Source of the DNA: Parafrankia elaeagni
GTDB lineage: Bacteria; Actinomycetota; Actinomycetes; Frankiales; Frankiaceae
NCBI RefSeq assembly: GCF_000374165.1
Contig: NZ_KB893750.1
Span: forward strand, 3,100 to 56,660
Reading direction: 5' to 3'
Length of the DNA stretch: 53,561 bases
The notes below the pieces were generated by a model, which saw nothing but the letters and a program-made list of their open reading frames with translations, made no database searches and had not been told where the DNA came from. This document shows positions 30,883 through 44,663 of this stretch, piece after piece. Positions within the stretch are counted from its first letter, which is position 1, and each line of letters starts with the position of its first letter. The translations under genes were made by a program, and so were the position numbers.

Positions 30883-33276
30883 TCAGCTGGATATCTTCGG
30901 GGTGTCTCGGCGGGATGGGGAGATGGGCGCTGCCGTGGTGGCCGGGGCGTCGACCTGTGCGGTGAAGCGGCGCAGGCGCAGGCTGTTGGCGACGACGAAC
31001 ACCGAGCTGAACGCCATGGAGGCACCGGCGATCATCGGGTTGAGCAGGCCTGCCGCGGCCAGGGGCAGCGCCGCGAGGTTGTAGGCGAATGCCCAGAACA
31101 GGTTGCCCTTGATGGTCGCCAGGGTGCGGCGGGAGAGCCGGATCGCGTCGACAGCGGCCCGCAGGTCGCCGCGGACGAGAGTGAGATCGCTGGCCTCGAT
31201 GGCGACGTCGGTGCCGGTGCCCATGGCGAGGCCGAGGTCGGCCTGGGCGAGGGCGGGGGCGTCGTTGACGCCGTCGCCGACCATCGCGACGACCTTGCCC
31301 TCGGCCTGCAGGCGCCTGACCACGTCGACCTTGTCGGCCGGCAGCACCTCCGCGATGAGGGTGCCCGGGCCGGTCTCGATGCCGACCTCTGCCGCGACCG
31401 TGCGGGCGACGGCCGTGTTGTCGCCGGTGAGCAGCACGGGGGTGAGCCCCAGCCGGCGGAGCTGGGCGACGGCCTGGGCCGAGGTGGGTTTCACGACGTC
31501 CGCGACGACGAGGACGGCGCGGGCCTTCCCGTCCCAGGCGACGCCGACGGCGGTGCGGCCGGCCGCCTCGGCGGTGGTCCTGGCCGTGGTGAGGTCGGGC
31601 GGCAGCGGCTGGCTCCACTTCTCCAGGAGAGCCGCCCGCCCGATGAGGACGGCGTGCCCGTCGACGACCCCCTGGACACCGAGTCCTTCGAGGTTGCTGA
31701 ACTGCTCGACGTCGGGCAGGTCGCCGACCCGTTCGCGGGCGCCGCGGGCGACCGCGGCGGCGATCGGGTGTTCGGACGCGTTCTCCAACGCTCCGGCGAG
31801 CCGCAGCATCTCGGTCTCGTCGACGCCGGCGGCGACGTGGATCTCGACCAGGTTCATGCGTCCCGTGGTGACGGTGCCGGTCTTGTCGAGCACGATCGTG
31901 TCGACGCGTCGGGTGGATTCGAGTACTTCGGGGCCCTTGATGAGGATGCCGAGCTGCGCTCCCCGGCCTGTTCCGACCAGCAGCGCCGTCGGGGTGGCCA
32001 GCCCGAGGGCACACGGGCAGGCGATGATCAGCACGGCGACCGCGGCGGTGAACGCGGCGGCCGGGCCGGCGCCCGCGCCGAGCCAGAAGGCCAGGGTGGC
32101 CGCGGCCAGGGTGATGACGACCGGCACGAACACGCCGGAGATCCGGTCGGCGAGCCGCTGCGCGGCGGCCTTGCCGTTCTGGGCGTCCTCGACGAGCCGG
32201 GCCATCTGGGCCAGCTGGGTGTCGGCGCCGACCCGGGTGGCGCGTACGACCAGTCGCCCGCCGGCGTTCACCGTCGCTCCGGTGACGGAGTCGCCCGGGG
32301 CGACCTCCACGGGGACGGACTCGCCGGTCAGCATCGAGGCGTCGACGGCCGAGGAGCCTTCGTCGACCACACCGTCGGTGGCGATCCGCTCGCCGGGCCG
32401 GACGACGAACCGCTCGCCGACGGCCAGCTGCCCGATCGGGAGCCGGACCTCCGTGCCGTCCCGCAGGACCGCCACGTCCTTGGCACCGAGCTCGAGCAGC
32501 GCGCGCAGCGCGGCGCCGGCCTGCCGCCTGGCCCGCGCCTCGAAGTAGCGGCCGGCGAGGATGAAGGTGGTGACTCCGGCCGCGACTTCCAGGTAGATGT
32601 TGCCGGTGCCGTCGCCGCGGGCGATCGTCAGCTCGAACGGGTGCGTCATCCCCGGCGTCCCGGCTGTGCCGAACTGCAGCGCGTACAACGACCAGCCGAA
32701 CGCCGCACCGACCCCGATCGAGATCAGCGTGTCCATCGTCGCGGCGCCGTGTCGCAGGTTCGTCCAGGCGGCGCGGTGGAAGGGCCAGGCGGCCCAGGTC
32801 ACGACGGGGCTCGCCAGGGCGAGCGAGAACCACTGCCAGTTCGTGAACTGCAGCGCTGGGACCATCGCCAGCACGATGACCGGAACCGCGAGCACGATGC
32901 TGGTGACCAGGCGGTGGCGCAGTGGTCGAGCCGGATCGGGTTCGGAGCCCGCCACACCCGCTGCCGCTGCCGATTCCAGGCCCGCGGCCGGTGGTCGGGG
33001 CAGTTCGGCGGTGTAGCCGGCTGCCTGCACCTGGGCGACCAGCACGGCCGGGTCGACGCCCTCGGGGGCGCTCACCCGGGCCTTCTCAGTGGCGTAGTTG
33101 ACGGTGGCGGTGACGCCGTCGAGCTTGTTCAGCCTGCGTTCGATCCGGTTGGCGCAGGAGGCACAGGTCATCCCGCCGATCGCGAGCTCGATCTCGGTGA
33201 CCGGGGCGTCGGTGGCGTGCGCCGTGGTGGTGGTGTCGGTTGTGGTTGTGGTTGTGGTTGTGGCGGTGGCGCTCAT
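30883..33276 (-). CDS. copA: Copper-exporting P1B-type ATPase
   Basis: 797 residues. An unusual Thr-rich leader (residues 5-18, partly from a GGTTGT hexamer repeat at 33238-33261) precedes one HMA domain with GGMTCASC (Cys38, Cys41). Then eight helices with the metal site CPC ([13 protein letters not shown]), phosphorylation DKTGT, the SEHPIAA nucleotide motif and [12 protein letters not shown]. Helices 7-8 have the YN and MxxSS pairs ([22 protein letters not shown]), which mark Cu(I) specificity. It pumps Cu(I) out using ATP, fed by CopZ. Second to last gene in a four-gene operon behind a CsoR-type operator. Confidence 0.95.
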
Positions 33277-33300: not shown

Positions 33301-34299
33301 TCAGTGTCCATGGCCGTCGTCGGCGTGCCCCGCCGCGGGCGATGCCGTGGGCGATGTCGTGGGCGATGCGGTGGCGGCGTCCGGCACGGCCGGTCCGGTG
33401 GGCACCGTGAACTCCGCTGTGCGGACGACTCCGTCGTGCCGGAAGTCGAGGAACAGCCGGTAGCGGCCTTCGGTCGGCACATCGGCCACGAACGGGATGT
33501 CCGGGCCGGCCGACGTTTCCTCACCGTCTGGATGTACGTGCAGGTAGGCCAGGTCGCCCTCACGCAGCGCCACCAGGTGCCCGTGGGCGCCGAGGTAGGG
33601 CTCCAGGTCCGTCACCGGCCGTCCGTCCCTGCGAACCGTCAGGGTGAGCGGCGACGCCTGCCCGCCGACCAGGTCACCGGCGAGAGTCACCTCGTAGCCG
33701 TCCACCGAAGCGCTGCGTGTCGGCAGGTGGGTGATCGGCTCGAACAGGCCCGGGGCGGTCAGGTCGACGCCCAGGGTGGTGGCCGCGGCGCCGGTGGGGG
33801 TGAAGTCCGCGAACGCCCGGTAGGAACCGGCTGTGCGCACCGGCAGGGGAACGGACCAGGTCCCGTCGGGCGCCATCGTCGGATGGAGGTGCTGGAACGC
33901 GCTGCCGTCACGGCGCACCACGATCAGGTGCATCCGCCTGTCGTGCTCGACGTCGAAGGCGGTGACGGTTTCCCCGCCGGGCCCGGTGATCCGGAACGTG
34001 AAGTCGTCCGTGTCATCCAGTGACAAGGTCGACACGGTGGGCGTGAAGGTGTAGCCGCTCAGGCTCGACGCCAACCCGCCCGGCAGGTCCGGGTCGTTGT
34101 CCGGGTCGTTGTCCGAGGCGTCATCCGGGGCGGTGCCGCCGTGGCCGTCCCCGTGGCCGGTGCCGCCGGTGTCGGAGCTGTGCTCCGGGCTGGCGGTGAC
34201 CGCGTCCAACGGACCGACCGCCGCGCCGACGCCGTAGGCGCCGCCGATGACCAGGGCGAGCGCTGCGCCGAAGGCGGACAGTCTCGTGATCGTGTTCAT
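33301..34299 (-). CDS. Secreted or membrane-anchored metal-binding-like protein
   Basis: 332 residues. N-terminal signal or anchor helix (LSAFGAALALVIGGAYGVGAAVG), then a His/Asp-rich segment (GGTGHGDGHGGTAPDD and repeated DNDPDNDPD), two beta-rich domains, and a His-rich end (HADDGHGH). Conserved spots MHLIVVRRD, QHLHPTM and YLGAHGHLVAL, YLHVHPDG look like repeated histidine sites of a periplasmic-type metal protein found near copA in actinobacteria. It probably binds copper outside the membrane. Located between copZ and copA, 24 bp before copA. Confidence 0.8.
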   Translation of the reverse strand: MNTITRLSAFGAALALVIGGAYGVGAAVGPLDAVTASPEHSSDTGGTGHGDGHGGTAPDDASDNDPDNDPDLPGGLASSLSGYTFTPTVSTLSLDDTDDFTFRITGPGGETVTAFDVEHDRRMHLIVVRRDGSAFQHLHPTMAPDGTWSVPLPVRTAGSYRAFADFTPTGAAATTLGVDLTAPGLFEPITHLPTRSASVDGYEVTLAGDLVGGQASPLTLTVRRDGRPVTDLEPYLGAHGHLVALREGDLAYLHVHPDGEETSAGPDIPFVADVPTEGRYRLFLDFRHDGVVRTAEFTVPTGPAVPDAATASPTTSPTASPAAGHADDGHGH

Positions 34300-34365: not shown

Positions 34366-34572
34366 TCAGCCGACGAGCTGGTAGCCGGCCTCCTCGACCG
34401 CGGTGCGCACCTTGGCCGGATCGAGCTCCTGGCCGCTGGTCACGGTGACCGCGCCGGAGCCCAGGTCCACGGCCACGTCGGTGACGCCGGCGATCTCGCC
34501 GAGTTCCTCGGTGACCGAGGCGACGCAGTGGGCGCAGGTCATGCCCGTGACCGTGTAAGTGATCTCGCTCAT
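34366..34572 (-). CDS. copZ: Copper chaperone (HMA domain)
   Basis: 68 residues, a stand-alone heavy-metal-associated domain: YTVTGMTCAHCVASVTEEL with the CxxC Cu(I) site. It delivers Cu(I) to CopA and can pass copper to CsoR-type sensors. ATG at 34572 is chosen because MSEITYTV fits the family start and GGGAGAGG lies upstream; the longer frame would read through the leader toward the CsoR box. First gene of the operon. Confidence 0.92.
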   Translation of the reverse strand: MSEITYTVTGMTCAHCVASVTEELGEIAGVTDVAVDLGSGAVTVTSGQELDPAKVRTAVEEAGYQLVG

Positions 34573-34644
34573 CAGAGGTCCTCTCCCAAGGCTGGACGCT
34601 TCAGGGGCTGGGGCGATGCGCCGGAACCCCGACGCATTCAAACC

Positions 34645-34661
34645 ATACCCCCGGGGGGTAT
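34645..34661. promoter_or_regulatory. CsoR-type copper operator
   Basis: ATACCCCCGGGGGGTAT, the G/C-tract palindrome with TAT ends typical of CsoR boxes, 73 bp before the copZ start. CsoR leaves the DNA when it binds Cu(I). No csoR gene is present in this window, so the sensor must be elsewhere. Confidence 0.8.
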
Positions 34662-34703: not shown

Positions 34704-35765
34704 TCAGTCGTCGTGAGGTGCGGTGCCCGGAGAATGGGCGTGGCCCGACGTGGGCTGGGGCTGCTGCTCCGGCTCGCGGCTCTCACCCGCCACCGGCGGT
34801 GTGGGAGTCACCCCGCCCTCGCCGCCGGCGGGTGTCGCCGGATGCTCCTCGCCATCACTGTGGGGATGCGGGACGGACTCCTCTGTCACCTCGTGGCCGT
34901 GGCCATGGCTGTGCGAACCGGCGAGTTCCACGGCGGGCAGCGCGAGACCGGTGACCCCGGCGCCGGCGGCACCGATCACGACGGCCGCGCTGAACGAGGA
35001 GCGGAACCCGCGCGTGTGCCGGGACCACAGGCTCCACAGCACGAGGACGCAGACCGCTGCCTCGAACGCGACCGTGGTGAGGTCGACTCTGTCGACCTGT
35101 TCGGGCAGGCCGGAGTGGGGGCCGACGGGCAGCCCGGAGGTCCGGCTGACCGCCCACAACAGGATCGACCCGGTGTTGACCAGTAGGCCCGCCGCCATCG
35201 TCGGCAGGCTGGCCGTCCGCATCACGGCGAGGGCCCAGCCCACCTGGAAGATCGCGGTCGCGAAGAAGAACACCCCTGACAGCGGCCAGTCCCCGAAGTG
35301 GCTCGGCGCGACGGCGAGATGGGTGGCGGCGGCGCCGAGCGAGGCGAACGACGCCGTGATCCTGCCTGCCCCGAGGTCGGTCATGATCCGAGGAGCGGCT
35401 CGCTCGTACCCGTACCGGGTATCCGAACCAGGCCGCTCGGAACCAGGCCGCTCGGAGGCCGTCCCCGGCCGGCGGGGTGGCCTCCTGGTCGGGGTCGCGT
35501 TGCGGGCGGCGTGGCGCCCCGGCCGGCGGATCACAAGTGGTGCGGTGGGTGCACCGTCCACGGCCCGTCTCATGTGGTCAGGCGGGACGGCGCGGTAGTC
35601 GTACGGGCCGGTGGGCGGTGCCGTGTCGATGGGCCACTCCCCGGCCGAACGCCCGTGGTGTCGTCCACCCGGAGCTTCGTCCGCGGCGGCGTGCCGCCGG
35701 CTCGTGTGTCCGTTGCTCAGGTCCGTCAGATCCGTCAGGTCCGTTCCGCCCGTCAAATCCGTCAC
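34704..35765 (-). CDS. His-rich multi-helix membrane protein
   Basis: 353 residues. A hydrophilic 125-residue N-terminus (with repeats like DLTDLTDL and ERPGSERPGS) leads to about five helices (GVFFFATAIFQVGWALAVM, AAVCVLVLWSLW, and others) and a His-rich C-terminal tail (SHSHGHGHEVTEE, PHPHSDGEEHP, SGHAHSPG). The His clusters suggest divalent or copper ion binding. GTG at 35765 overlaps the TGA of the upstream HMA gene (GTGA), which supports the long start; an internal ATG (MTDLGAGRITASF) is an alternative and would remove the N-terminus. No named family was recognised. Confidence 0.75.
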   Translation of the reverse strand: MTDLTGGTDLTDLTDLSNGHTSRRHAAADEAPGGRHHGRSAGEWPIDTAPPTGPYDYRAVPPDHMRRAVDGAPTAPLVIRRPGRHAARNATPTRRPPRRPGTASERPGSERPGSDTRYGYERAAPRIMTDLGAGRITASFASLGAAATHLAVAPSHFGDWPLSGVFFFATAIFQVGWALAVMRTASLPTMAAGLLVNTGSILLWAVSRTSGLPVGPHSGLPEQVDRVDLTTVAFEAAVCVLVLWSLWSRHTRGFRSSFSAAVVIGAAGAGVTGLALPAVELAGSHSHGHGHEVTEESVPHPHSDGEEHPATPAGGEGGVTPTPPVAGESREPEQQPQPTSGHAHSPGTAPHDD

Positions 35766-35983
35766 GGCAGCGGCGCGGCCCGGTAGCCGAGATCTTCGAT
35801 CACCCTGACCACGTCCTGCGGCCTGTTCTGGCTGAGGTCGAGCTCGACCGTGGTGCGCCCCTGCCTGAGCGTGGTCCGGGTGCTGCGCACGCCTGGCAGG
35901 TCCTCCAGCGCGTCGTCGATGAGCAGCGAGCAGCTGCCGCAGTGCATTCCCTCGACGCGGAACGTGTGTGTGGTGACGGGCAC
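35762..35983 (-). CDS. HMA-domain metal chaperone
   Basis: 73 residues. THTFRVEGMHCGSCSLLID has the CxxC metal site of copper chaperones. GTG at 35983 with GGAG eight bases upstream. It follows the SafE-cupredoxin gene by 110 bp and overlaps the next gene by four bases, so a three-gene transcript is likely: a membrane partner, a chaperone and a His-rich protein. Confidence 0.85.
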   Translation of the reverse strand: MPVTTHTFRVEGMHCGSCSLLIDDALEDLPGVRSTRTTLRQGRTTVELDLSQNRPQDVVRVIEDLGYRAAPLP

Positions 35984-36046
35984 CGTGGGTACTCCGTTCT
36001 CCTTGTTCGATCGAAGCGGACGCGGTCGGACGGCGGGACGCGGACG

Positions 36047-36112
36047 TGGTCGGACGACGGTGATGGTGTGGTCAGACGACGGTGATGGTGTGGTCAGACG
36101 ACGGTGATGAGG
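36047..36112. repeat. 22-bp tandem repeat that copies the 3' end of the SafE-cupredoxin gene
   Basis: Three units at 36047-36068, 36069-36090 and 36091-36112 (TGGTCAGACGACGGTGATGG type). The last contains the stop codon and final codons of the SafE-type gene (minus strand), so the two other copies are duplicated gene ends lying in the spacer. Confidence 0.92.
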
Positions 36113-37224
36113 CCGGTGTACATGCCCATGCCGCACGCGTAGCGCAGCCGGCCGGGCTCCAGGACGCCCAGGTCGATCGTCGTGTCGCCCTGGGCCGGCA
36201 GGATCTCCTCGACGTCGCGGTCGGGGATGACGAAGGACTGGATGCAGCCCCGCACGTCGTCCGAGTGCACGATCAGCGTGGTGGGCACGCCGGCCCGCAC
36301 CTGGACGTTGCCCGGGCTGTAGGAGTCGGCGCGCGCGGTGATCTCCACGGTCTGGCGGCCCTCGGTGGTCGAGGCTGCTGCCGTGTCGGCCGCCGGCGGC
36401 CGGGCGAGACCGAGGGATTCGGCGAGCCGGCCGGCGGCCAGGGGCGAGCCGGCGAGCTGCAGGCCGCCGTTGAGGGTGTAGAGCCCCATCGCCAGCACGA
36501 CCAGCCCGGTGACCACGGCCAGCCGGCTGCGCCATGCGGTCGCGGCCCTGCGGGCGGCGTAGCCGAGGACGGCGAACAGCGGGCCGGTGCCGAGGACGAA
36601 CACCCCCATCGTGGCCGCGCCCGCCAGCGCGGACCCGGACGCGAGTGCCAGCGCCTCCACCGACAGCGTCACGCCGCACGGGATGAGCACGGTGGCCAGG
36701 CCGAGCAGCGCCGGTGCCAGGGCGGCCTGCGAGCGGGCGCGCCTGCGGACGATCTTCGTCCACGACGCGGGCGGTTCGACGACGACGCGGCGGAATCCGG
36801 GTACGCCCAGCTGGGCGAGACCGAACAGCACGATCAGCAGGCCGGCGCCGATCTGCAGCCAGGTGCGCGCGTCGACCGAGAGCTCCACCACGCTGCCGGC
36901 CGCTCCCAGCAAAGCCCCGAGCAGCACGTGCGAGACCAGCTTGCCGGCCAGGAACCCCCCGACCGGCGCGAGGTCGTCGCCGAGCCGCGTGTGCCAGTCC
37001 GGTTCCCTTCCCGCCTGCGGCGAGTACGCCCCCGGACGGGGCCGTGCGCGTTGGGCACGGGCCGAGTGGCGGCCTCGTGCAGGCGGGCGGCCGGGCAGCC
37101 GCGCCGATCCCGTCGCCGCGGCATGTTGCCGGGTGATCAGACCGGTCAGCAGCCCGCCCTGTACCGCGGCACAGGACACCCCGCCCGCGAAGAGGCCGGT
37201 CACGAGAACAGTTGCGAGATTCAA
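36094..37224 (-). CDS. SafE/UreH-type membrane transporter fused to a cupredoxin-like domain
   Basis: 376 residues. The first 245 form a TauE/SafE or UreH-like membrane unit: VLVTGLFAGGVSCAAVQGGLL, GKLVSHVLLGALLG, and ATVLIPCGVTLSVEALALA, with conserved Cys. A linker leads to a C-terminal cupredoxin-like domain (about 290-376): VQVRAGVPTTLIVHS, GCIQSFVIPD, and a copper-site loop RYACGMGMYTG. The fusion implies copper handling across the membrane. TTG at 37224 is chosen because NLATVLVTGLF is the family start and GGAGG lies four bases before it. An ACTA-N7-TAGT palindrome lies about 115 bp upstream. Confidence 0.82.
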   Translation of the reverse strand: MNLATVLVTGLFAGGVSCAAVQGGLLTGLITRQHAAATGSARLPGRPPARGRHSARAQRARPRPGAYSPQAGREPDWHTRLGDDLAPVGGFLAGKLVSHVLLGALLGAAGSVVELSVDARTWLQIGAGLLIVLFGLAQLGVPGFRRVVVEPPASWTKIVRRRARSQAALAPALLGLATVLIPCGVTLSVEALALASGSALAGAATMGVFVLGTGPLFAVLGYAARRAATAWRSRLAVVTGLVVLAMGLYTLNGGLQLAGSPLAAGRLAESLGLARPPAADTAAASTTEGRQTVEITARADSYSPGNVQVRAGVPTTLIVHSDDVRGCIQSFVIPDRDVEEILPAQGDTTIDLGVLEPGRLRYACGMGMYTGLITVV

Positions 37225-37337
37225 CGAACCTCCGCGACGGCGGACGTGGGCCCGACTGCCTGTCGAAGGGAGCGCCGGGACCGGGGGCAGGATCGGCACG
37301 CGGTCCCGGCGCGAGTGGCCGAAGGCCAGGCTAAACC

Positions 37338-37352
37338 ACTACTGCATGTAGT
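37338..37352. promoter_or_regulatory. ACTA-N7-TAGT palindrome A (before the SafE-cupredoxin gene)
   Basis: ACTACTGCATGTAGT, containing CTAC-N5-GTAG. It is in the divergent region between the SafE-type gene and the shortened ATPase gene and fits a BlaI/CopY-family site. Confidence 0.7.
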
Positions 37353-37518
37353 AGACAAACGGGTCGACGGTGACCGGAGGCGGTGCCCTGTGCCGCTGGC
37401 GGCGCAGGGCGGCGGCGACCGGAGCACTCGCTCCATCCAGTTCACGGCCGCCGAGACGGCGGAACTTCGTCGCGCGGACAGGTACGGTCCAACGACCCGA
37501 GGGGGCGAGTGGCCCGCA

Positions 37519-37545
37519 CCATCTACTACGAAAGTTAGTAGATGG
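37519..37545. promoter_or_regulatory. Palindrome B: CCATCTACTA-N7-TAGTAGATGG
   Basis: Perfect ten-base arms with the same ACTA-N7-TAGT centre as palindrome A, about 84 bp before the ATG at 37629. It is the strongest of the four sites. Confidence 0.78.
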
Positions 37546-37628
37546 TGAAGGTCGGCGGTTCGTCGCTCTCGGTCCGTCTCCGGGCCAGGTCGCGGGCCAG
37601 GCGCGGTTGTTCGCGGGAGGAGCCGGTC

Positions 37629-38225
37629 ATGTCTTCACGGGTGGACGACGGCCGGACGTCGACCGTGGTTCTGGAGGTCTCCGGGCTGCGGTGGGCGACG
37701 GAGAAGGCGCGCGTGGAGGCCATGCTGGGCCGGCGCCCAGGGGTGGTCGAGGTGGCGGCGAACCCGGTGGCGCAGACCGCGCTGGTCCGGTTCGACCCGG
37801 AACGGACCTCGACGGCGCAGCTGGCGGGCTGGATTCGCGACTGCGGGTACCACTGCGACGGACGGTCCGTTCCGGCGCACATCTGTGATCCCCTCGCCGA
37901 ACCGGGGCGGCCCCCGGAAGCGGAGGTGGTGCTCATGCGCTCCGACCCGCTGGACGTTCCCGCCGCCCTGCTCGTCGGCCGCGCCACCGTCCGCAAGATG
38001 CGCCAGAACCTGGCCTGGGCCATCGGCTACAACACGGTCGCGTTGCCGATCGCCGCAGGTGCCTTCGAACCCGTCGTCGGGCTCACGCTACGACCCGAGA
38101 TCGCCGCGCTGACCATGTCCGGGTCCAGCCTCCTGGTCGCCGTGAACGCCCTGCTGCTCAAACGACAGAAGCTGCCGAGGACGTCGGGCGGGCGGCAAGG
38201 TGTCGCAGCGGCCGATCTCGCCTGA
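37629..38225 (+). CDS. Shortened P-type ATPase: HMA domain plus last membrane helices
   Basis: 198 residues. Residues 10-85 are HMA-like, ending GYHCDGRSVPAHICDP as in large heavy-metal ATPases, but the CxxC is lacking (LEVSGLRWATEKARVE). The sequence then jumps to EVVLMRSDPLDVPAALLVGRATVRKMRQNLAWAIGYNTVALPIAAG-type sequence (in part), the segment after the ATP-binding hinge, with helices 7-8 incl. the YN pair and MSGSSLLVAVNALLLKR. The actuator, phosphorylation and nucleotide domains and CPC helix are missing, so it cannot hydrolyse ATP. The frame is intact, with GGAGGAG before ATG 37629 and an operator upstream, so it may be expressed. Confidence 0.8.
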   Translation: MSSRVDDGRTSTVVLEVSGLRWATEKARVEAMLGRRPGVVEVAANPVAQTALVRFDPERTSTAQLAGWIRDCGYHCDGRSVPAHICDPLAEPGRPPEAEVVLMRSDPLDVPAALLVGRATVRKMRQNLAWAIGYNTVALPIAAGAFEPVVGLTLRPEIAALTMSGSSLLVAVNALLLKRQKLPRTSGGRQGVAAADLA

Positions 38226-38266
38226 GCCGAGGGCGGGTGGCCGACGAGCCCTCGAACGGAACATCC

Positions 38267-38281
38267 ACTATGCAGCGTAGT
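38267..38281. promoter_or_regulatory. ACTA-N7-TAGT palindrome C
   Basis: ACTATGCAGCGTAGT, about 40 bp after the shortened ATPase gene and 212 bp before the DUF6153-like gene. Core CTAT-N5-GTAG has one mismatched arm base. Confidence 0.6.
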
Positions 38282-38431
38282 AGTCGTCCTCCGGAATGTC
38301 GCTGCGCGGTGGCCTTGTCGTGCCCCTGCGACCAAGGAGCCCTGGGCATTCTCGCCAGGGGAGAAGGACTGATGGCTCCTCCTGGGAGGCACCTCGCACG
38401 CACCCATGGGCGAACGGTCGCGGCGTCGACA

Positions 38432-38446
38432 ACTAGCCGCGGTAGT
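38432..38446. promoter_or_regulatory. ACTA-N7-TAGT palindrome D
   Basis: ACTAGCCGCGGTAGT, 33 bp before the GTG start of the DUF6153-like gene, where it would cover a promoter or the transcript start. Its centre is 165 bp from palindrome C. Confidence 0.6.
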
Positions 38447-38478
38447 AGTCTGCGGGCGACGGCCGGGGAAGAGGTGAC

Positions 38479-38886
38479 GTGACGCGCTGCGAAGCACCGG
38501 CACGACACGGCGGGCTCTGGGCTCGGCTCACACTCGTGTCAGCCGTCCTGCTCGGGCTGCTGGCGATGCACGCCGGCCTGGCCGCGCCGGCGCACACGCG
38601 CGCTTCGCCGCCCTGCGTCGAGAAAACCGATCGCGACCTTCACCCCCACTGGTCCCACTCGCACGAGCCCGGGGCCGAACACCACGGCCACCAGGGCGCG
38701 CTCTGCTCGGCGGTGTTCCGTGACGACCCCGAACCGGTTTCCCCGGGCGGCGAACAGCATGGCCTGGCGGCCACCTCCGTCTCCTTCGGAGCCTCCGCCT
38801 TCACCAGGGCGCGGGGAGACCCACCGCGGACGCCGCCGCCTCGGCACGTGACCGACCTGTCTGTCCATTGCGTGTGGCGGCTGTGA
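38479..38886 (+). CDS. DUF6153-like small exported His-rich protein
   Basis: 135 residues. N-terminal membrane helix or signal (LTLVSAVLLGLLAMHAGLAAPAHT, whose MHAGLA resembles the family's MHGLA), a His-rich middle (HPHWSHSHEPGAEHHGHQ) and a short conserved-looking end (TDLSVHCVWRL) like the terminal LCVLRI of DUF6153 proteins, which commonly sit beside DUF305 genes in actinobacteria. Probably metal-binding outside the cell. GTG at 38479 after GAAGAGG. Next gene follows after 91 bp. Confidence 0.65.
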   Translation: MTRCEAPARHGGLWARLTLVSAVLLGLLAMHAGLAAPAHTRASPPCVEKTDRDLHPHWSHSHEPGAEHHGHQGALCSAVFRDDPEPVSPGGEQHGLAATSVSFGASAFTRARGDPPRTPPPRHVTDLSVHCVWRL

Positions 38887-38977
38887 GCGGATCGGCGCCG
38901 GACGTCGCGCACGCCTGTCGGCGCGCTCGACGGCTCCGGCCTCAGCTCCGTTGGCAACCCGACACCGAGGACGACTC

Positions 38978-39601
38978 GTGCGAAGAAGACACCACCCTGG
39001 ACTCGCCGCCGTAGCACTGGCCCTGACGGCCACGCTCACGGCGTGTGGGGGCGACGGCACCCCGACGGCGCCTTCGTCCGCGACGGCGGGAAGCAGCAGC
39101 GGCGTCGACGACGCCGTCAACGCCGACGACTACAACAACGCGGACGTGATGTTCGCCCAGATGATGATCCCGCACCACCAGCAGGCTGTGGAGATGGCGG
39201 AGCTGGCACCCGGCCGTGCTGCCGACCCGGCGGTGCTCACGCTGGCCCAGCAGATCGGGACCGCGCAGGCACCGGAGATCGAGACGATGACCGGCTGGCT
39301 TGCGACGTGGGGTCGACCCACCGCCATGCCCGGCGCCGGGGGTCACGGCGGCGGCCACAGCACCGACGGCATGGGAATGATGTCGGAGGACGACATGACC
39401 GCTCTCCGGAGAGCGTCCGGTCAGGACTTCGACCGCATGTTCCTGGAGATGATGATCCGGCACCACGGGGGTGCGATCGCGATGGCACGCACCGAACAGC
39501 GGGACGGGCGGTTCCCCGACGCCGTCGCCCTGGCAGGGGCGATCGAGTCCACCCAGGCCGCAGAAGTCGAAACCATGAAGGGTCTGCTCGGTACCGGATA
39601 G
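38978..39601 (+). CDS. DUF305 lipoprotein
   Basis: 207 residues. Lipoprotein signal with lipobox LTAC (ALTATLTACGG). Two DUF305 (ferritin-like) halves carry repeated sites: DVMFAQMMIPHHQQAVEMAELA and MFLEMMIRHHGGAIAMARTE, with a His/Gly/Met-rich link (GGHGGGHSTDGMGMM). These proteins are often induced by copper or in metal-resistance islands, and the HH and Met residues suit Cu(I) binding. GTG at 38978 is used because the signal peptide then begins with arginines; TTG 38951 is an alternative. Confidence 0.88.
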   Translation: MRRRHHPGLAAVALALTATLTACGGDGTPTAPSSATAGSSSGVDDAVNADDYNNADVMFAQMMIPHHQQAVEMAELAPGRAADPAVLTLAQQIGTAQAPEIETMTGWLATWGRPTAMPGAGGHGGGHSTDGMGMMSEDDMTALRRASGQDFDRMFLEMMIRHHGGAIAMARTEQRDGRFPDAVALAGAIESTQAAEVETMKGLLGTG

Positions 39602-39609
39602 CCGATGCA

Positions 39610-39650
39610 GGGCCCTGGGGCGCCGGCGTACGGCCCGCGCCCCAGGGCCC
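39610..39650. terminator. Strong stem-loop after the DUF305 gene
   Basis: GGGCCCTGGGGCGC (39610-39623) pairs perfectly with GCGCCCCAGGGCCC (39637-39650), loop 13 nt, nine bases after the stop. There is no T-run, so it is either a U-less terminator common in high-GC genomes or an mRNA-end stabiliser before the repressor gene. Confidence 0.6.
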
Positions 39651-39749
39651 CTCGGGTCCCAGGTGCGACACTCGGCACGACGAGAACGAGATGTCCGTCG
39701 CGGGGAGGGCCCTGGCGACGGGGCGGCTGACGACCGGAAGGGCGGAACG

Positions 39750-40154
39750 GTGGAACGGCTGGGAGACCTCGAAAGTGAGGTCATGGACCAGTTGTGGGCG
39801 GCCCGCGGCCCGGTCTCCGTGCGCGGCGTGCGAGACGCCCTGCAGTCCACGAGGCCGCTCGCCTACACCACCGTCATGACCGTCATGGACCGGCTCTTCC
39901 ACAAGGGGTGGCTCGTCCGGGATCGTGTCGGCCGTTCCTACCAGTACCGCCCCGCGCTCAGCAGGGGCGAGTACACCGCCAGAATGATGCGCGACGTGCT
40001 GTCCATGACCGACGACAGAGGGCTGGCGCTGCTGCACTTCGTCGACACCATGGCCCCCGCCGAATACGAGGCACTCCAGGAAGCCCTGCGCTGGCACCGA
40101 AGCCGTCCTCCCCGGGCGGCCGAACCACCGTGCGTCGAGGACGGGACCTCGTGA
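39750..40154 (+). CDS. BlaI/MecI/CopY-family repressor (copper-island copy)
   Basis: 134 residues, normal family length without the tail of the other copy. Winged helix: MERLGDLESEVMDQLWAARGPVSVRGVRDAL, recognition region AYTTVMTVMDRLFHKGWLVR. C-terminal dimer half ends ALQEALRWH. GTG at 39750 after GGAAGGG. Its stop overlaps the M56 protease start (GTGA), so the pair is translated together. It probably binds the four ACTA-N7-TAGT palindromes nearby; none lies directly in front of its own gene, so it may be co-transcribed with the DUF genes. Confidence 0.88.
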   Translation: MERLGDLESEVMDQLWAARGPVSVRGVRDALQSTRPLAYTTVMTVMDRLFHKGWLVRDRVGRSYQYRPALSRGEYTARMMRDVLSMTDDRGLALLHFVDTMAPAEYEALQEALRWHRSRPPRAAEPPCVEDGTS

Positions 40155-41128
40155 GTCTCGCCCTCCTGGTCGCCTATGTCACCGCCGTCGGAGTCCTGTT
40201 CCCTCGCCGGCTCGCCCGGGCCGCCTGGACCTCGCACGCACCCCGCCTGGCCGCAGGCACCTGGCTCGTCACGGCTGTCTCCGTCCTGAGCGTCGCTTTG
40301 CTGGCCGCGGCGGTCCTCGTGACCCCGCTGCACACCCTCGGTGACGCCTTCGTGCTCCTCCTGCAGGGCTGCGGGTGGCCACCGCAACTGCGTGCGCCGT
40401 CCGGACCGGGCGAGTACGCCGGCCTGGCCATCATCAGCTGGATGGTGGGCAGGACCGTCCTCTCGGGCTTCGTGGTCTGCCGGGCAGCGCGGCGCGAACG
40501 CCGTCGACATCGCTGCGACCTCCACCTGCTGGGCGAGCCGGCCGGGACCGGCGTGGTCGTCCTCGACCATCCGCAGCCGAGCGCGTTCTGCGTTCCCGGT
40601 GACGGCGGGCACATCGTGCTGACGCGCGGGGCCCTGGATGTCCTCTCACCCGCGGAACTGGCAGCCGTCCTCGCCCACGAACGAGCCCACCTGAGCGGCC
40701 GTCACCACGTCATCGTCCTTCTCCCCGCCATCCTCGCCACCGCGTTCCCGCGCCTGCCGCTCTTCACCCTCGCGCTGAGCGAGGTCCGTCGGCTCGTGGA
40801 GCTCGCAGCCGACGACAGGGCGCTGCGCCGCGCCACTCCGGTCACCCTCGCGCAGGCCGTCCTCCGCCTTGCCGCACCCGCCTCGGCCCAGCACCCGGCT
40901 ACGGGCACGTTCCACGCGGCCGGCACCGCAACCACCGAACGAGTGCTCCGCCTCGTCACTCCACGGCCCCGCCGCGCACGGCTCGCCATGCTCTCCAGGC
41001 TGTTGGTCGCGGTCTCGCTCGCGGCCACACCACTGGCGGCCGTCGTCCTGCCGGCCGTTACCGACCTCGCCTCCCACTGCACTGAGGTGACCACTTCACG
41101 TCATCCTGCCGAGATCGACCGCGGATAG
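40151..41128 (+). CDS. M56 (BlaR1-type) membrane metallopeptidase (copper-island copy)
   Basis: 325 residues with helices near 1-20, 35-60, 90-115 and at both ends of the C-terminal part. The zinc motif HERAH is in AVLAHERAHLSGRHH, and VELAADDRALRRA supplies the downstream ligand. Upstream, VVLDHPQPSAFCVPGDGGHIVLT is the typical gluzincin-minigluzincin fold start. No external sensor domain. It should act as antirepressor for the BlaI-family partner it overlaps. The signal may be metal, judging by neighbours; this is inference. It converges with the SMP-30-like gene, 22 bp apart. Confidence 0.87.
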   Translation: MSLALLVAYVTAVGVLFPRRLARAAWTSHAPRLAAGTWLVTAVSVLSVALLAAAVLVTPLHTLGDAFVLLLQGCGWPPQLRAPSGPGEYAGLAIISWMVGRTVLSGFVVCRAARRERRRHRCDLHLLGEPAGTGVVVLDHPQPSAFCVPGDGGHIVLTRGALDVLSPAELAAVLAHERAHLSGRHHVIVLLPAILATAFPRLPLFTLALSEVRRLVELAADDRALRRATPVTLAQAVLRLAAPASAQHPATGTFHAAGTATTERVLRLVTPRPRRARLAMLSRLLVAVSLAATPLAAVVLPAVTDLASHCTEVTTSRHPAEIDRG

Positions 41129-42529: not shown

Positions 42530-43216
42530 ATGCGGCCCCGACTGCTCCTGGTCGACGACGACGACGCCATCCGCGACATGGTCGGGACGGCGCTGCGGTA
42601 CGCGGGCTTCGAGACGACCGTCGCGGTGGACGGCCGCGATGCGCTGGCCAGGCTCGCGGAGATGACACCCGATCTGATCGTCCTCGACGTGCTGATGCCG
42701 GGGCTGGACGGCCTCGAGGTGTGCCGGCGTCTGCGCGGGCGGGGTGAGACGACGCCGATCATCTTCCTCACGGCACGGGCCTCGAGCCGCGACGTCCTCG
42801 AGGGGTTCGGGCGGGGCGGGGACGACTACGTGACCAAGCCGTTCGTCCTCGACGAGCTGGTGGCGCGCATCCGCGCGGTGCTGCACCGGGCCGGGTCGTC
42901 GACGTCCGGGACGTCGCTGACCTGCGCCGACCTGGTGCTGCACGAGGAGCGCCACGAGGTGCGCCGCGCCGGGCAGCGGATCGAGCTGTCGCCCACCGAG
43001 TTCAGCCTGCTGCGCTACCTGATGACCAACCAGGGCCGGGTGCTGTCCAAGCACCAGATTCTGGACCGGGTGTGGAACCAGGATCTCGACGGTGACGGAC
43101 ACGTCGTGGAGACGTACATCAGCACGCTGCGCCGCCGTCTGGACGTGGGCGGCGACGGGCCGCTGATCCACACGATCCGAGGCGTGGGCTACACGCTCCG
43201 GCCCGCCGGGGAGTGA
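42530..43216 (+). CDS. OmpR/PhoB-family response regulator
   Basis: 228 residues. Receiver domain with acid pocket VDDDD, phosphorylation site Asp53 in LIVLDVLMPG, Thr in LTARAS and Lys in VTKPF. C-terminal winged helix (about 130-225) with ELSPTEFSLLRYLMTNQGRVLSKHQIL and VVETYISTLRRRLD. ATG at 42530. The cognate kinase starts five bases after the stop, in one operon. Confidence 0.95.
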   Translation: MRPRLLLVDDDDAIRDMVGTALRYAGFETTVAVDGRDALARLAEMTPDLIVLDVLMPGLDGLEVCRRLRGRGETTPIIFLTARASSRDVLEGFGRGGDDYVTKPFVLDELVARIRAVLHRAGSSTSGTSLTCADLVLHEERHEVRRAGQRIELSPTEFSLLRYLMTNQGRVLSKHQILDRVWNQDLDGDGHVVETYISTLRRRLDVGGDGPLIHTIRGVGYTLRPAGE

Positions 43217-43220
43217 TCCC

Positions 43221-44663
43221 TTGCACCTGCGCACGAAGCTGACCCTGGGCATCCTGACAGTGACGTTCGTGGTCTTCCTGGTGGTCGGGTCCGTCGCCAT
43301 CCCCACTGCCAAGCATGCGCTGCGCGACCGCATCGACGACCGGTTGCGTGCCGACCTGCCGGAGATCCGGACGTCGGTCCTCGCCACGGGCGGGTCCGTG
43401 CCAGGCGGATCCGTGCCCGGCGGGTCCGTGGACAGCGGATTACCGGGCGGCGGATTACCGGGTGGCGGCGCCGGGCCGGACGAGCGCGGCTACGCGCTGG
43501 TGGTGATCGAGGGCATGACGGCGACCGTGCTGGCCACTCCGGGGACGTCCGCCCCGCCGGACCTGCGGGGGATCACCGCCCCTGCCCGCAGCGGCGAGAT
43601 CGAGTACGTGACGGCGCCCGACGGCACGACCTACCGCTACACCACCACCGACCTCGGCGACGGGCGCCTGCTGGCTGTGGCCGCCCCCGTCGACGACCTC
43701 GCCGGTCTCGTCGACGATCTCATCGGCACCTTCATCGTCATCGGTACCGGTGGCGCGGCGGCGCTGGCGGTCCTGGCGTGGCTGTGGATCCGGCACGGCA
43801 CCCGTCAGATCGAGCACCTGACCCGGCGGGCGGAGGCAGTCGCCAACGGTGATCCCGACCGCAGCCTCGTCGTGGCCGCCACGACCACCGAGCTCCGCCA
43901 GCTCAGCCACGCCCTCGACGCCATGGTCACCGGCATCGACCAGTCGCTGGTGGCACAGACGCGGTCGGAGGTCCGGCTTCGGGAGTTCATCGCCAACGCA
44001 TCCCACGAGCTGCGCACTCCGCTCACGAGCGTGAGCGGCTATCTGCAGCTCGACCTCGATGGTGCCTTCGCCGACGGCGAGCACCACCAGCGCTCGATGC
44101 GACGCGCTCTGGCCGAGGCCAGCCGGATGCGGCGCATCGTCACCGACCTCCAGCTGCTCACCGAACTCGACGAGCACCCCCTGCCCACGGCCGTCGAAGT
44201 GGACGTCAACCCGCTGCTGCGCGAGGCCGTGCACGACATGCGCACGCTGGATCCGACGCGGACCTGGACCCTGGACCTGTCGGCGCAACCGCTCGTCGTG
44301 GCCGGTGACGCCCACCAGCTCCGCCAGGTCGTGACCAATCTGCTGGTCAACGTGCGCGTCCACACGCCACCCGCCACCGTCACCACCGCGCGGGCGAGCC
44401 CGAGGGACGGCTCCATCGTCATCGAGGTTTCCGACGACGGGCCCGGGCTTCCCACCGACGACCTCGAACGGGTCTTCGACCGGTTCTGGCGCCACGACCC
44501 GTCCCGATCGCGCGCCTCGGGTGGCAGCGGGCTCGGCCTTTCCATCGTCGCCGCTGTCGTCTCGGCGCATGGCGGCGCTGCCGAAGCGGTCCATGCCCCC
44601 GCCGGCGGGCTCACCGTCCGGATCGTGCTTCCCGCGCCCGGCGCCCCAGCCAGACGACCATGA
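43221..44663 (+). CDS. Sensor histidine kinase
   Basis: 480 residues. Helix 1 (LTLGILTVTFVVFLVVGSVA), an outer domain of about 130 residues with a Gly/Ser/Pro repeat loop (GSVPGGSVPGGSVDSGLPGGGLPGGG-like), helix 2, HAMP, then HisKA with the phosphorylated His262 in IANASHELRTPLT. ATPase boxes: N-box NLLVNVRVHTP (a valine replaces the usual alanine before xxHT), G1 DDGPGLP, F box RFWRHD, G2 GSGLGLSIVAAVV. TTG at 43221 follows GGGGAG by seven bases. The signal is unknown. Confidence 0.94.
   Translation: MHLRTKLTLGILTVTFVVFLVVGSVAIPTAKHALRDRIDDRLRADLPEIRTSVLATGGSVPGGSVPGGSVDSGLPGGGLPGGGAGPDERGYALVVIEGMTATVLATPGTSAPPDLRGITAPARSGEIEYVTAPDGTTYRYTTTDLGDGRLLAVAAPVDDLAGLVDDLIGTFIVIGTGGAAALAVLAWLWIRHGTRQIEHLTRRAEAVANGDPDRSLVVAATTTELRQLSHALDAMVTGIDQSLVAQTRSEVRLREFIANASHELRTPLTSVSGYLQLDLDGAFADGEHHQRSMRRALAEASRMRRIVTDLQLLTELDEHPLPTAVEVDVNPLLREAVHDMRTLDPTRTWTLDLSAQPLVVAGDAHQLRQVVTNLLVNVRVHTPPATVTTARASPRDGSIVIEVSDDGPGLPTDDLERVFDRFWRHDPSRSRASGGSGLGLSIVAAVVSAHGGAAEAVHAPAGGLTVRIVLPAPGAPARRP

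Follow-up and report, generated by a model that had tools for sequence, protein, structure and literature searches.

We analyzed a 53,561-nucleotide stretch of the Parafrankia elaeagni genome (contig NZ_KB893750.1, positions 3,100 to 56,660; referred to here as the window), in which a copper island carries four copies of the palindromic dyad ACTA-N7-TAGT and a gene pair for a BlaI-family repressor and an M56 membrane metalloprotease (starting at 39750 and 40151, respectively). The assignment of the dyads to this BlaI/M56 pair, made in an original prediction from the letters of the window, is strongly supported: across 36 Frankiaceae genomes, the site and the copper genes follow this class of BlaI and not its paralogues, and two of the four operators (1 and 4) are conserved in related promoters. 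The best explanation as a whole, to which we give a probability of about 0.78, is that the BlaI encoded at 39750 represses three units via the four dyads and that M56 relieves the repression on an extracytoplasmic copper or thiol signal. The sites, their conservation, their assignment to the regulator, and their gene company are results of computation.

Four intergenic dyads in a copper island

The window contains exactly four copies of ACTA-N7-TAGT (at 37338, 37525, 38267, and 38432), compared with a mean of 0.00 and a maximum of 0 in 100 dinucleotide shuffles of the window. All four copies are intergenic, as had been predicted; two lie between the genes at 36094-37299 (- strand) and 37629-38225 (+ strand), and two lie between the latter, an ATPase remnant, and the gene at 38479. 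The arms of the second dyad, originally described as perfect over ten bases, are in fact perfect over 12 (i.e., two more per side). The four operators are as follows (no strand assigned).

37336..37354, operator 1: CCACTACTGCATGTAGTAG; the leftward DsbD/SafE-cupredoxin gene starts 36 nt away
37517..37547, operator 2: perfect 12-base arms (37517-37528 and 37536-37547) flanking CGAAAGT; precedes the ATPase remnant
38265..38283, operator 3: upstream of the 38479-41128 operon
38430..38448, operator 4: the gene at 38479 starts 30 nt downstream

In the whole genome (7.59 Mb), the dyad is found at 11 places, 4 of which are inside one 1.1-kb region. Local clustering, and not the genome-wide number, is the striking feature of ACTA-N7-TAGT here. 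None of the remaining 7 sites is beside a recognizable copper gene (open frames inspected by eye); one distal site, at the end of a frame resembling a sigma factor, is 8 kb away from a third BlaI/M56 pair. At another (L101:3047; position 49246 of contig C125 of this genome), the TAGTAG extension is on the other strand, and ACTATGGAACATAGTAG precedes a leuC-like frame by approximately 111 nt. This C125 site, whose 17-mer was present in all 7 genus genomes searched, probably belongs to another regulator.

The genes of the island are given below, with the strand in parentheses.

39750..40154 (+): BlaI-family repressor, 134 aa; PF03965 (Penicillinase_R winged-helix domain), 95.9 bits (cutoff, 22.6)
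40151..41128 (+): M56 membrane metalloprotease, 325 aa; 4-nt overlap with blaI; HExxH at residues 176-180, Cys74, and His309-Cys310
38951..39601 (+): DUF305/CopM-type metallochaperone; PF03713, 182 bits; NF049983 (CopM), 101 bits (cutoff, 90)
38479..38886 (+): small His-rich protein, 135 aa with 13 His; the first of the genes that follow operators 3 and 4; no family match
37629..38225 (+): remnant of a second heavy-metal ATPase; HMA domain and C-terminal membrane part, with the catalytic core absent
36094..37299 (-): DsbD/SafE-type membrane protein with a C-terminal cupredoxin; PF13386 and PF13473; first gene of the leftward unit
35762..36085 (-): HMA metal-binding protein; PF00403
34704..35765 (-): protein without a family; 4-nt overlap with the HMA gene; open frame with high third-position G+C
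34366..34641 (-): CopZ-like chaperone, likely start at 34572; PF00403; CopZ models score under their cutoffs
33301..34299 (-): His-rich protein, probably secreted; no family scored above its cutoff
30883..33276 (-): CopA-type copper ATPase; TIGR01511, 533.7 bits (cutoff, 397)

Leftward from 37299, the order is thus DsbD/SafE-cupredoxin, HMA protein, protein without a family, CopZ, His-rich protein, and CopA; rightward, the ATPase remnant is followed by the small His-rich protein, DUF305/CopM, BlaI, and M56. The predicted BlaI-family gene at 39750 and its overlapping M56 partner at 40151 were both confirmed, and among named relatives this BlaI is closest to that of Parafrankia colletiae (96% identity). 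Two labels fared less well. "DUF6153" for the gene at 38479 is unsupported, given that no Pfam or NCBIfam family matched the protein at an E value of ≤0.001; homologues are present in related loci L014, L015, L016, and L023. The "shortened ATPase" is of ATPase origin, as stated, but is a core-less remnant rather than merely shortened: a 96-residue N-terminal stretch and an 88-residue C-terminal stretch are left of a second ATPase, of which L016 and L023 have intact copies, and the phosphorylation motif is gone. Operator 2 persists in front of this remnant. The intact homologues in L016 and L023 have no CPC motif; the match in L014 was limited to a piece of 40 residues.

Association of the dyads with one class of BlaI

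We compiled 80 loci from named genomes around related BlaI genes (10 from Frankiaceae and 70 from others). ACTA-N7-TAGT occurred 89 times in 42 of these loci, compared with 0.53 occurrences expected from half-site frequencies, and was the most overrepresented of all 256 four-base palindromes at that spacing; the effect depended on the spacing. The dyad was present in all 10 Frankiaceae loci and in 32 of the 70 others, with a density that peaked in the 2 kb before blaI and fell off farther out. In the site matrix, from which L018 (a copy of L017) was omitted, C and G occupied positions ±9, outside the search pattern, in 96% of the half-sites from Frankiaceae. The BlaI-locus tree was built without L007 and without the paralogue rows L008-L010.

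Aligned promoters showed the same sites. Both half-sites of operator 1 were invariant in 6 of 6 promoters, with a variable center; the half-sites of operator 4 were kept in 5 of 5; operator 3 was kept in 4 of 5; and the core of operator 2 was exact in 3 of 4 sequences that extended to it. As inverted repeats, the dyads might be structural elements (i.e., terminators or mobile-element ends) without regulatory meaning. However, it is mainly the half-sites and the spacing that are kept while centers vary, no terminator was found at any of the four dyads in a scan of 37200-39800, and adjacent gene starts lie at a median of 36.5 nt from the site (92 site-gene pairs; 14 of 93 sites were well inside a called frame). 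We regard this as the least probable of the alternatives. No sigma-70-type promoter was found in the same 37200-39800 region either, a negative result that says little for this phylum.

The scan of related genomes proposed earlier, our strongest test, was run on 36 Frankiaceae genomes (258.5 Mb, including that of P. elaeagni) with an extended site, ACTA-N7-TAGTAG. At an E value of ≤1e-20, 65 BlaI hits were obtained (more distant BlaI genes were excluded; P. elaeagni has 6 in all) and were divided by identity to the BlaI at 39750 into high (≥60%; n = 19, including our own), intermediate (47 to 59%; n = 10), and low (<47%; n = 36) classes. Four of the 10 intermediates (G004, G011, G032, and G033) lie on the same stretch of contig as a high-class gene. 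Of 104 extended sites found, at least one was within 12 kb of 18 of the 19 high-class genes and 8 of the 10 intermediates, compared with 0 of the 36 low-class genes. A DUF305 or copper-type ATPase gene within 15 kb followed the same pattern (18/19, 8/10, and 0/36, respectively); counted separately, DUF305 and copper-type ATPase genes accompanied 15 and 14 high-class genes and 1 and 8 intermediates. The chance expectation for each such copper neighbor was <1%. The locus set and the genome set are not independent, because L014-L023 and several of the 36 genomes probably come from the same organisms.

The window itself holds a second, paralogous pair.

3369..3965 (-): paralogous BlaI; PF03965, 85.2 bits
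2034..3200 (-): paralogous M56 without the Cys pair described below; PF05569, 22.7 bits, under the cutoff of 31
3934..4059 (no strand assigned): three paralogue-type dyads, around the start of the paralogous blaI and in the spacer to the divergent cydA

This pair (region 2034-6662) is divergent from the cytochrome bd genes cydAB, and its dyads are TTCTAC-N5-GTAGAA in two cases and CCTAC-N5-GTAGAA in one. In genomes G001-G012, TCTAC-N5-GTAGA was within 3 kb of 9 of 10 low-class BlaI genes, compared with 0 of 4 and 0 of 2 in the other classes. Alone, this dyad is unspecific, with 62 of 71 copies in these genomes away from low-class BlaI genes; the paralogue class and a TCTAC-N5-GTAGA dyad recur across Frankiaceae. 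Two pairs in one window that differ in operator and cysteines offer a natural contrast for what the proteases sense and how operator specificity diverged.

The dyads could also be owned by another local regulator, such as the OmpR-type response regulator and kinase encoded at 42530-44663, 1.4 kb downstream of M56. That gene pair was seen in only 1 of the 10 Frankiaceae loci (L014; the L016 sequence stops before this position, and those of L018 and L023 are short at the opposite end), whereas the dyad was in all 10, and both BlaI genes in the window are flanked by dyads with the common core CTA-N7-TAG. We rejected this ownership as very improbable.

Several observations weigh against our reading. 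Genome-wide, ACTA-N7-TAGT is in no excess (11 places compared with 91 for a control, the pattern read backwards), and the extended form is likewise not above its backward control in the 36 genomes. Of the 104 extended sites, 34 are near none of the 65 BlaI genes, including one in the P. elaeagni genome. No site lies within 12 kb of one orthologue (G032; 61%), neither DUF305 nor a copper-type ATPase lies within 15 kb of another (G002; 68%), and 2 of the 10 intermediates lack both site and copper neighbor. The exact dyad is absent from 38 of the 70 loci outside Frankiaceae, operator 3 is missing in L015, and one half-site base of operator 2 is changed in L023. Finally, the identity limits of 60% and 47% were set after the hits were seen, and the contrasts between classes represent few evolutionary events, without independence within the family.

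To these is added that copZ-copA carries a box of its own.

34645..34661 (no strand assigned): CsoR-type box, ATACCCCCGGGGGGTAT; approximately 72 nt before the likely copZ ATG (34572); 1 of 2 exact copies in the genome

We take ATACCC-N5-GGGTAT to be the consensus of a CsoR-type box. A close or exact box precedes copZ in L014, L015, L022, and Streptomyces L028, and one is near the second ATPase in L017, L018, and L023. The genome has two CsoR-family genes, both on other contigs, and a 2014 survey of Frankia metal genes names CsoR/RicR for copper control (PMC4531530). The island might be mainly a CsoR/RicR regulon, with secondary BlaI dyads and a BlaI/M56 pair that only tunes the DUF305 operon. 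However, the exact box is confined to the copZ spacer (the one further near match in the island, at 35406 with 1 mismatch, is internal to the gene at 34704-35765), all aligned promoters retain operators 1 and 4, and the dyads follow the BlaI classes; we consider such a regulon improbable. What the exact box before copZ does indicate is that CsoR probably controls copZ-copA, either in addition to BlaI or in its place, so that copper would act through one inner and one outer input. The original claim that the pair "controls this whole metal cluster" is consequently too broad.

The M56 partner and the proposed mechanism

A Foldseek structure search gave the M56 partner a BlaR1 fold. The protein is a membrane gluzincin, with HExxH and a downstream Glu. 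Only M48 and M56 domains were found in it, with no C-terminal penicillin-binding domain that could act as a beta-lactam sensor: the 325-aa protein ends 15 residues past Cys310, and BlaR1 chains of 531 to 556 residues align only to approximately residue 294. These features make the predicted "protease-relieved, non-beta-lactam" response plausible.

Apart from our own window, we retrieved partner stretches for 18 of the 19 high-class, all 10 intermediate, and 20 of the 36 low-class BlaI genes; one high-class and one low-class stretch gave no M56. Two probably extracytoplasmic cysteines were present in 17 of 17 high-class and 8 of 10 intermediate proteins and in 0 of 19 low-class proteins, 4 of which have a Cys within the last 32 residues but never at the aligned position. 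The residue next to Cys310 was His in all 17 high-class proteins and Tyr or Ser in the intermediate class. The Cys pair is a candidate copper or thiol sensor; from the sequence, we infer that Cys74 (outer loop) with His309-Cys310 (after the last transmembrane helix) is the likeliest sensing site. The operator, the gene company, and this candidate site sort together in this BlaI/M56 class.

In a wider set of 69 M56 proteins from 81 loci (11 gave none; L033 was left out), HExxH was constant because it had been required for selection. Here, three results count against the reading: the loop and tail cysteines were not significantly coupled (Fisher P = 0.10), and outside Frankiaceae the Cys pair was no significant predictor of copper neighbors (13/35 versus 3/23; P = 0.07) and did not predict the dyad (16/35 versus 13/23). 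The M56 proteins of L049, L060, L064, L075, L077, L088, and L090 (mostly Nocardioides) are without the outer-loop Cys and have Cys-Cys near the C terminus; some have His at the loop position, possibly an alternative ligand set.

We propose the following mechanism, which is an inference as to binding, repression, copper as the signal, proteolysis, and the part played by the cysteines; operon limits are taken from spacing. A BlaI dimer would bind the four copies of C-N-ACTA-N7-TAGT-N-G (the outer C/G is kept in most) and would thereby repress the leftward unit from 37299 (DsbD/SafE-cupredoxin, HMA protein, the next gene, and perhaps into copZ-copA), the rightward ATPase remnant, and the rightward genes for the His-rich protein, DUF305/CopM, BlaI, and M56. 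Since operators 3 and 4 precede the operon containing blaI, BlaI would repress its own operon; on the simplest reading, this is a switch of local action that represses itself. M56, which lacks a beta-lactam sensor, would act in the membrane as a metalloprotease of the BlaR1 kind; on an extracytoplasmic copper (or copper-driven thiol) signal, it may inactivate BlaI by cleavage, directly or via a further protease, and the operons would open. Cytoplasmic Cu(I) would probably be handled apart, by CsoR at copZ-copA.

Copper is the likeliest signal because of the gene company, and the predicted "metal response" was worded too strongly, given that gene company is its basis. In other Actinobacteria, the dyad often precedes noncopper genes, a further point against. 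Genes preceded by it there include a DsbA/Thioredoxin_4-type cluster (12 members, one scanned), a ResB-type cluster (4 members, one scanned), COX1 (a cytochrome oxidase subunit), a CbtA-type transporter, a cation-efflux protein, and unrelated genes, for example those for a methyltransferase, a PAP2 protein, and an ABC1-type kinase. No Pfam family matched 7 of the 20 representative neighbors scanned. An NlpC/P60-type protein (one of three scanned) is encoded beside ACTA-N7-TAGT in three loci of Frankiaceae (L019:11702-12805, L022:7274-8320, and L023:2016-3116), which suggests a cell-wall member of the regulon.

Such thiol-redox and cytochrome-biogenesis neighbors, together with COX1, would fit a variant with an unchanged regulator, sites, and relief by protease that responds instead to thiol or redox stress in the envelope, with a Cys74-Cys310 disulfide switch and copper acting via thiols. 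A DsbD-type gene is first in the leftward unit, and two outer-side cysteines fit a disulfide. Set against this are the copper genes beside 18 of the 19 close-class Frankiaceae loci and the invariant His by Cys310 of the high class, which fits metal binding better. We consider the thiol signal a serious alternative, although the less likely one. More specifically, we tentatively suggest, at somewhat less than even odds, that this minimal, sensor-domain-free M56 family senses extracytoplasmic Cu(I) directly via an outer-loop Cys and a His-Cys in the C-terminal tail, set in the membrane frame of BlaR1, and that, with a BlaI that reads ACTA-N7-TAGT, it forms an actinobacterial copper-resistance switch alongside CsoR, the two serving as outside and inside sensors.

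Comparison with known systems

BlaI/M56 pairs occur widely in Actinobacteria, and to our knowledge a signal has been established for only a minority of them. CopY/CopR of Firmicutes belongs to the same repressor superfamily and has copper-export targets. The identity of our BlaI as CopY was nonetheless rejected: it scored 40.3 bits with TIGR02698 (cutoff, 121.95) and has no Cys-X-Cys tail, the single Cys in the whole protein being absent from the L015 and L016 tails. The cop-box reading was also rejected, with 0 copies of TACANNTGTA in the window and a different, odd-length spacing in the dyad here.

By sequence, the closest solved structure to our BlaI is PDB 2g9w (E value, 1.8e-23), which we take to be Mycobacterium tuberculosis BlaI (Rv1846c). 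This is likewise an actinobacterial BlaI, but the accessible parts of the reports on it, whose regulon includes ATP-synthase genes (PMC12565901 and PMC7924339), do not describe it as a copper regulator; no operator sequence of the mycobacterial BlaI was found in the literature searched, as far as its text was accessible. With BlaI/BlaR1 (MecI/MecR1) of staphylococci, our pair shares the repressor family, the adjacent arrangement, a gluzincin membrane protease with a BlaR1 fold, and dyad operators; it differs in having no C-terminal penicillin-binding sensor and in its core, ACTA-N7-TAGT compared with TACA/TGTA in the staphylococcal system (PMC7253601).

The nearest precedent for the proposed mechanism is PetR/PetP of Synechocystis, in which, according to a commentary and a review, a BlaI-type regulator is degraded by a copper-activated BlaR1-type protease (PMC7896320 and PMC13421787). 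By description, the two are alike in having a BlaI-family regulator beside a BlaR1-type protease and copper genes as targets. PetR, as described there, targets plastocyanin and cytochrome c6 and both represses and activates, whereas the predicted targets here, in Frankiaceae, are copper chaperone, export, and cupredoxin genes with several local dyads.

The CsoR/RicR regulons of Actinobacteria contain the same kind of copper genes, and a CsoR-type box precedes copZ here; the regulator family and the operator differ, and the CsoR-family genes are elsewhere in the genome. The survey of Frankia metal genes cited above called copper-resistance mechanisms "not obvious," and the word BlaI is absent from its main text (PMC4531530). 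No actinobacterial BlaI/M56 copper system was found in the literature searched, which left out most subscription papers. What appears to be new is the use of a BlaI/M56 pair for an actinobacterial copper-resistance island, with several local operators, a contrasting paralogue, and a candidate minimal sensing site. The pair offers a candidate regulator for copper resistance in Frankiaceae.
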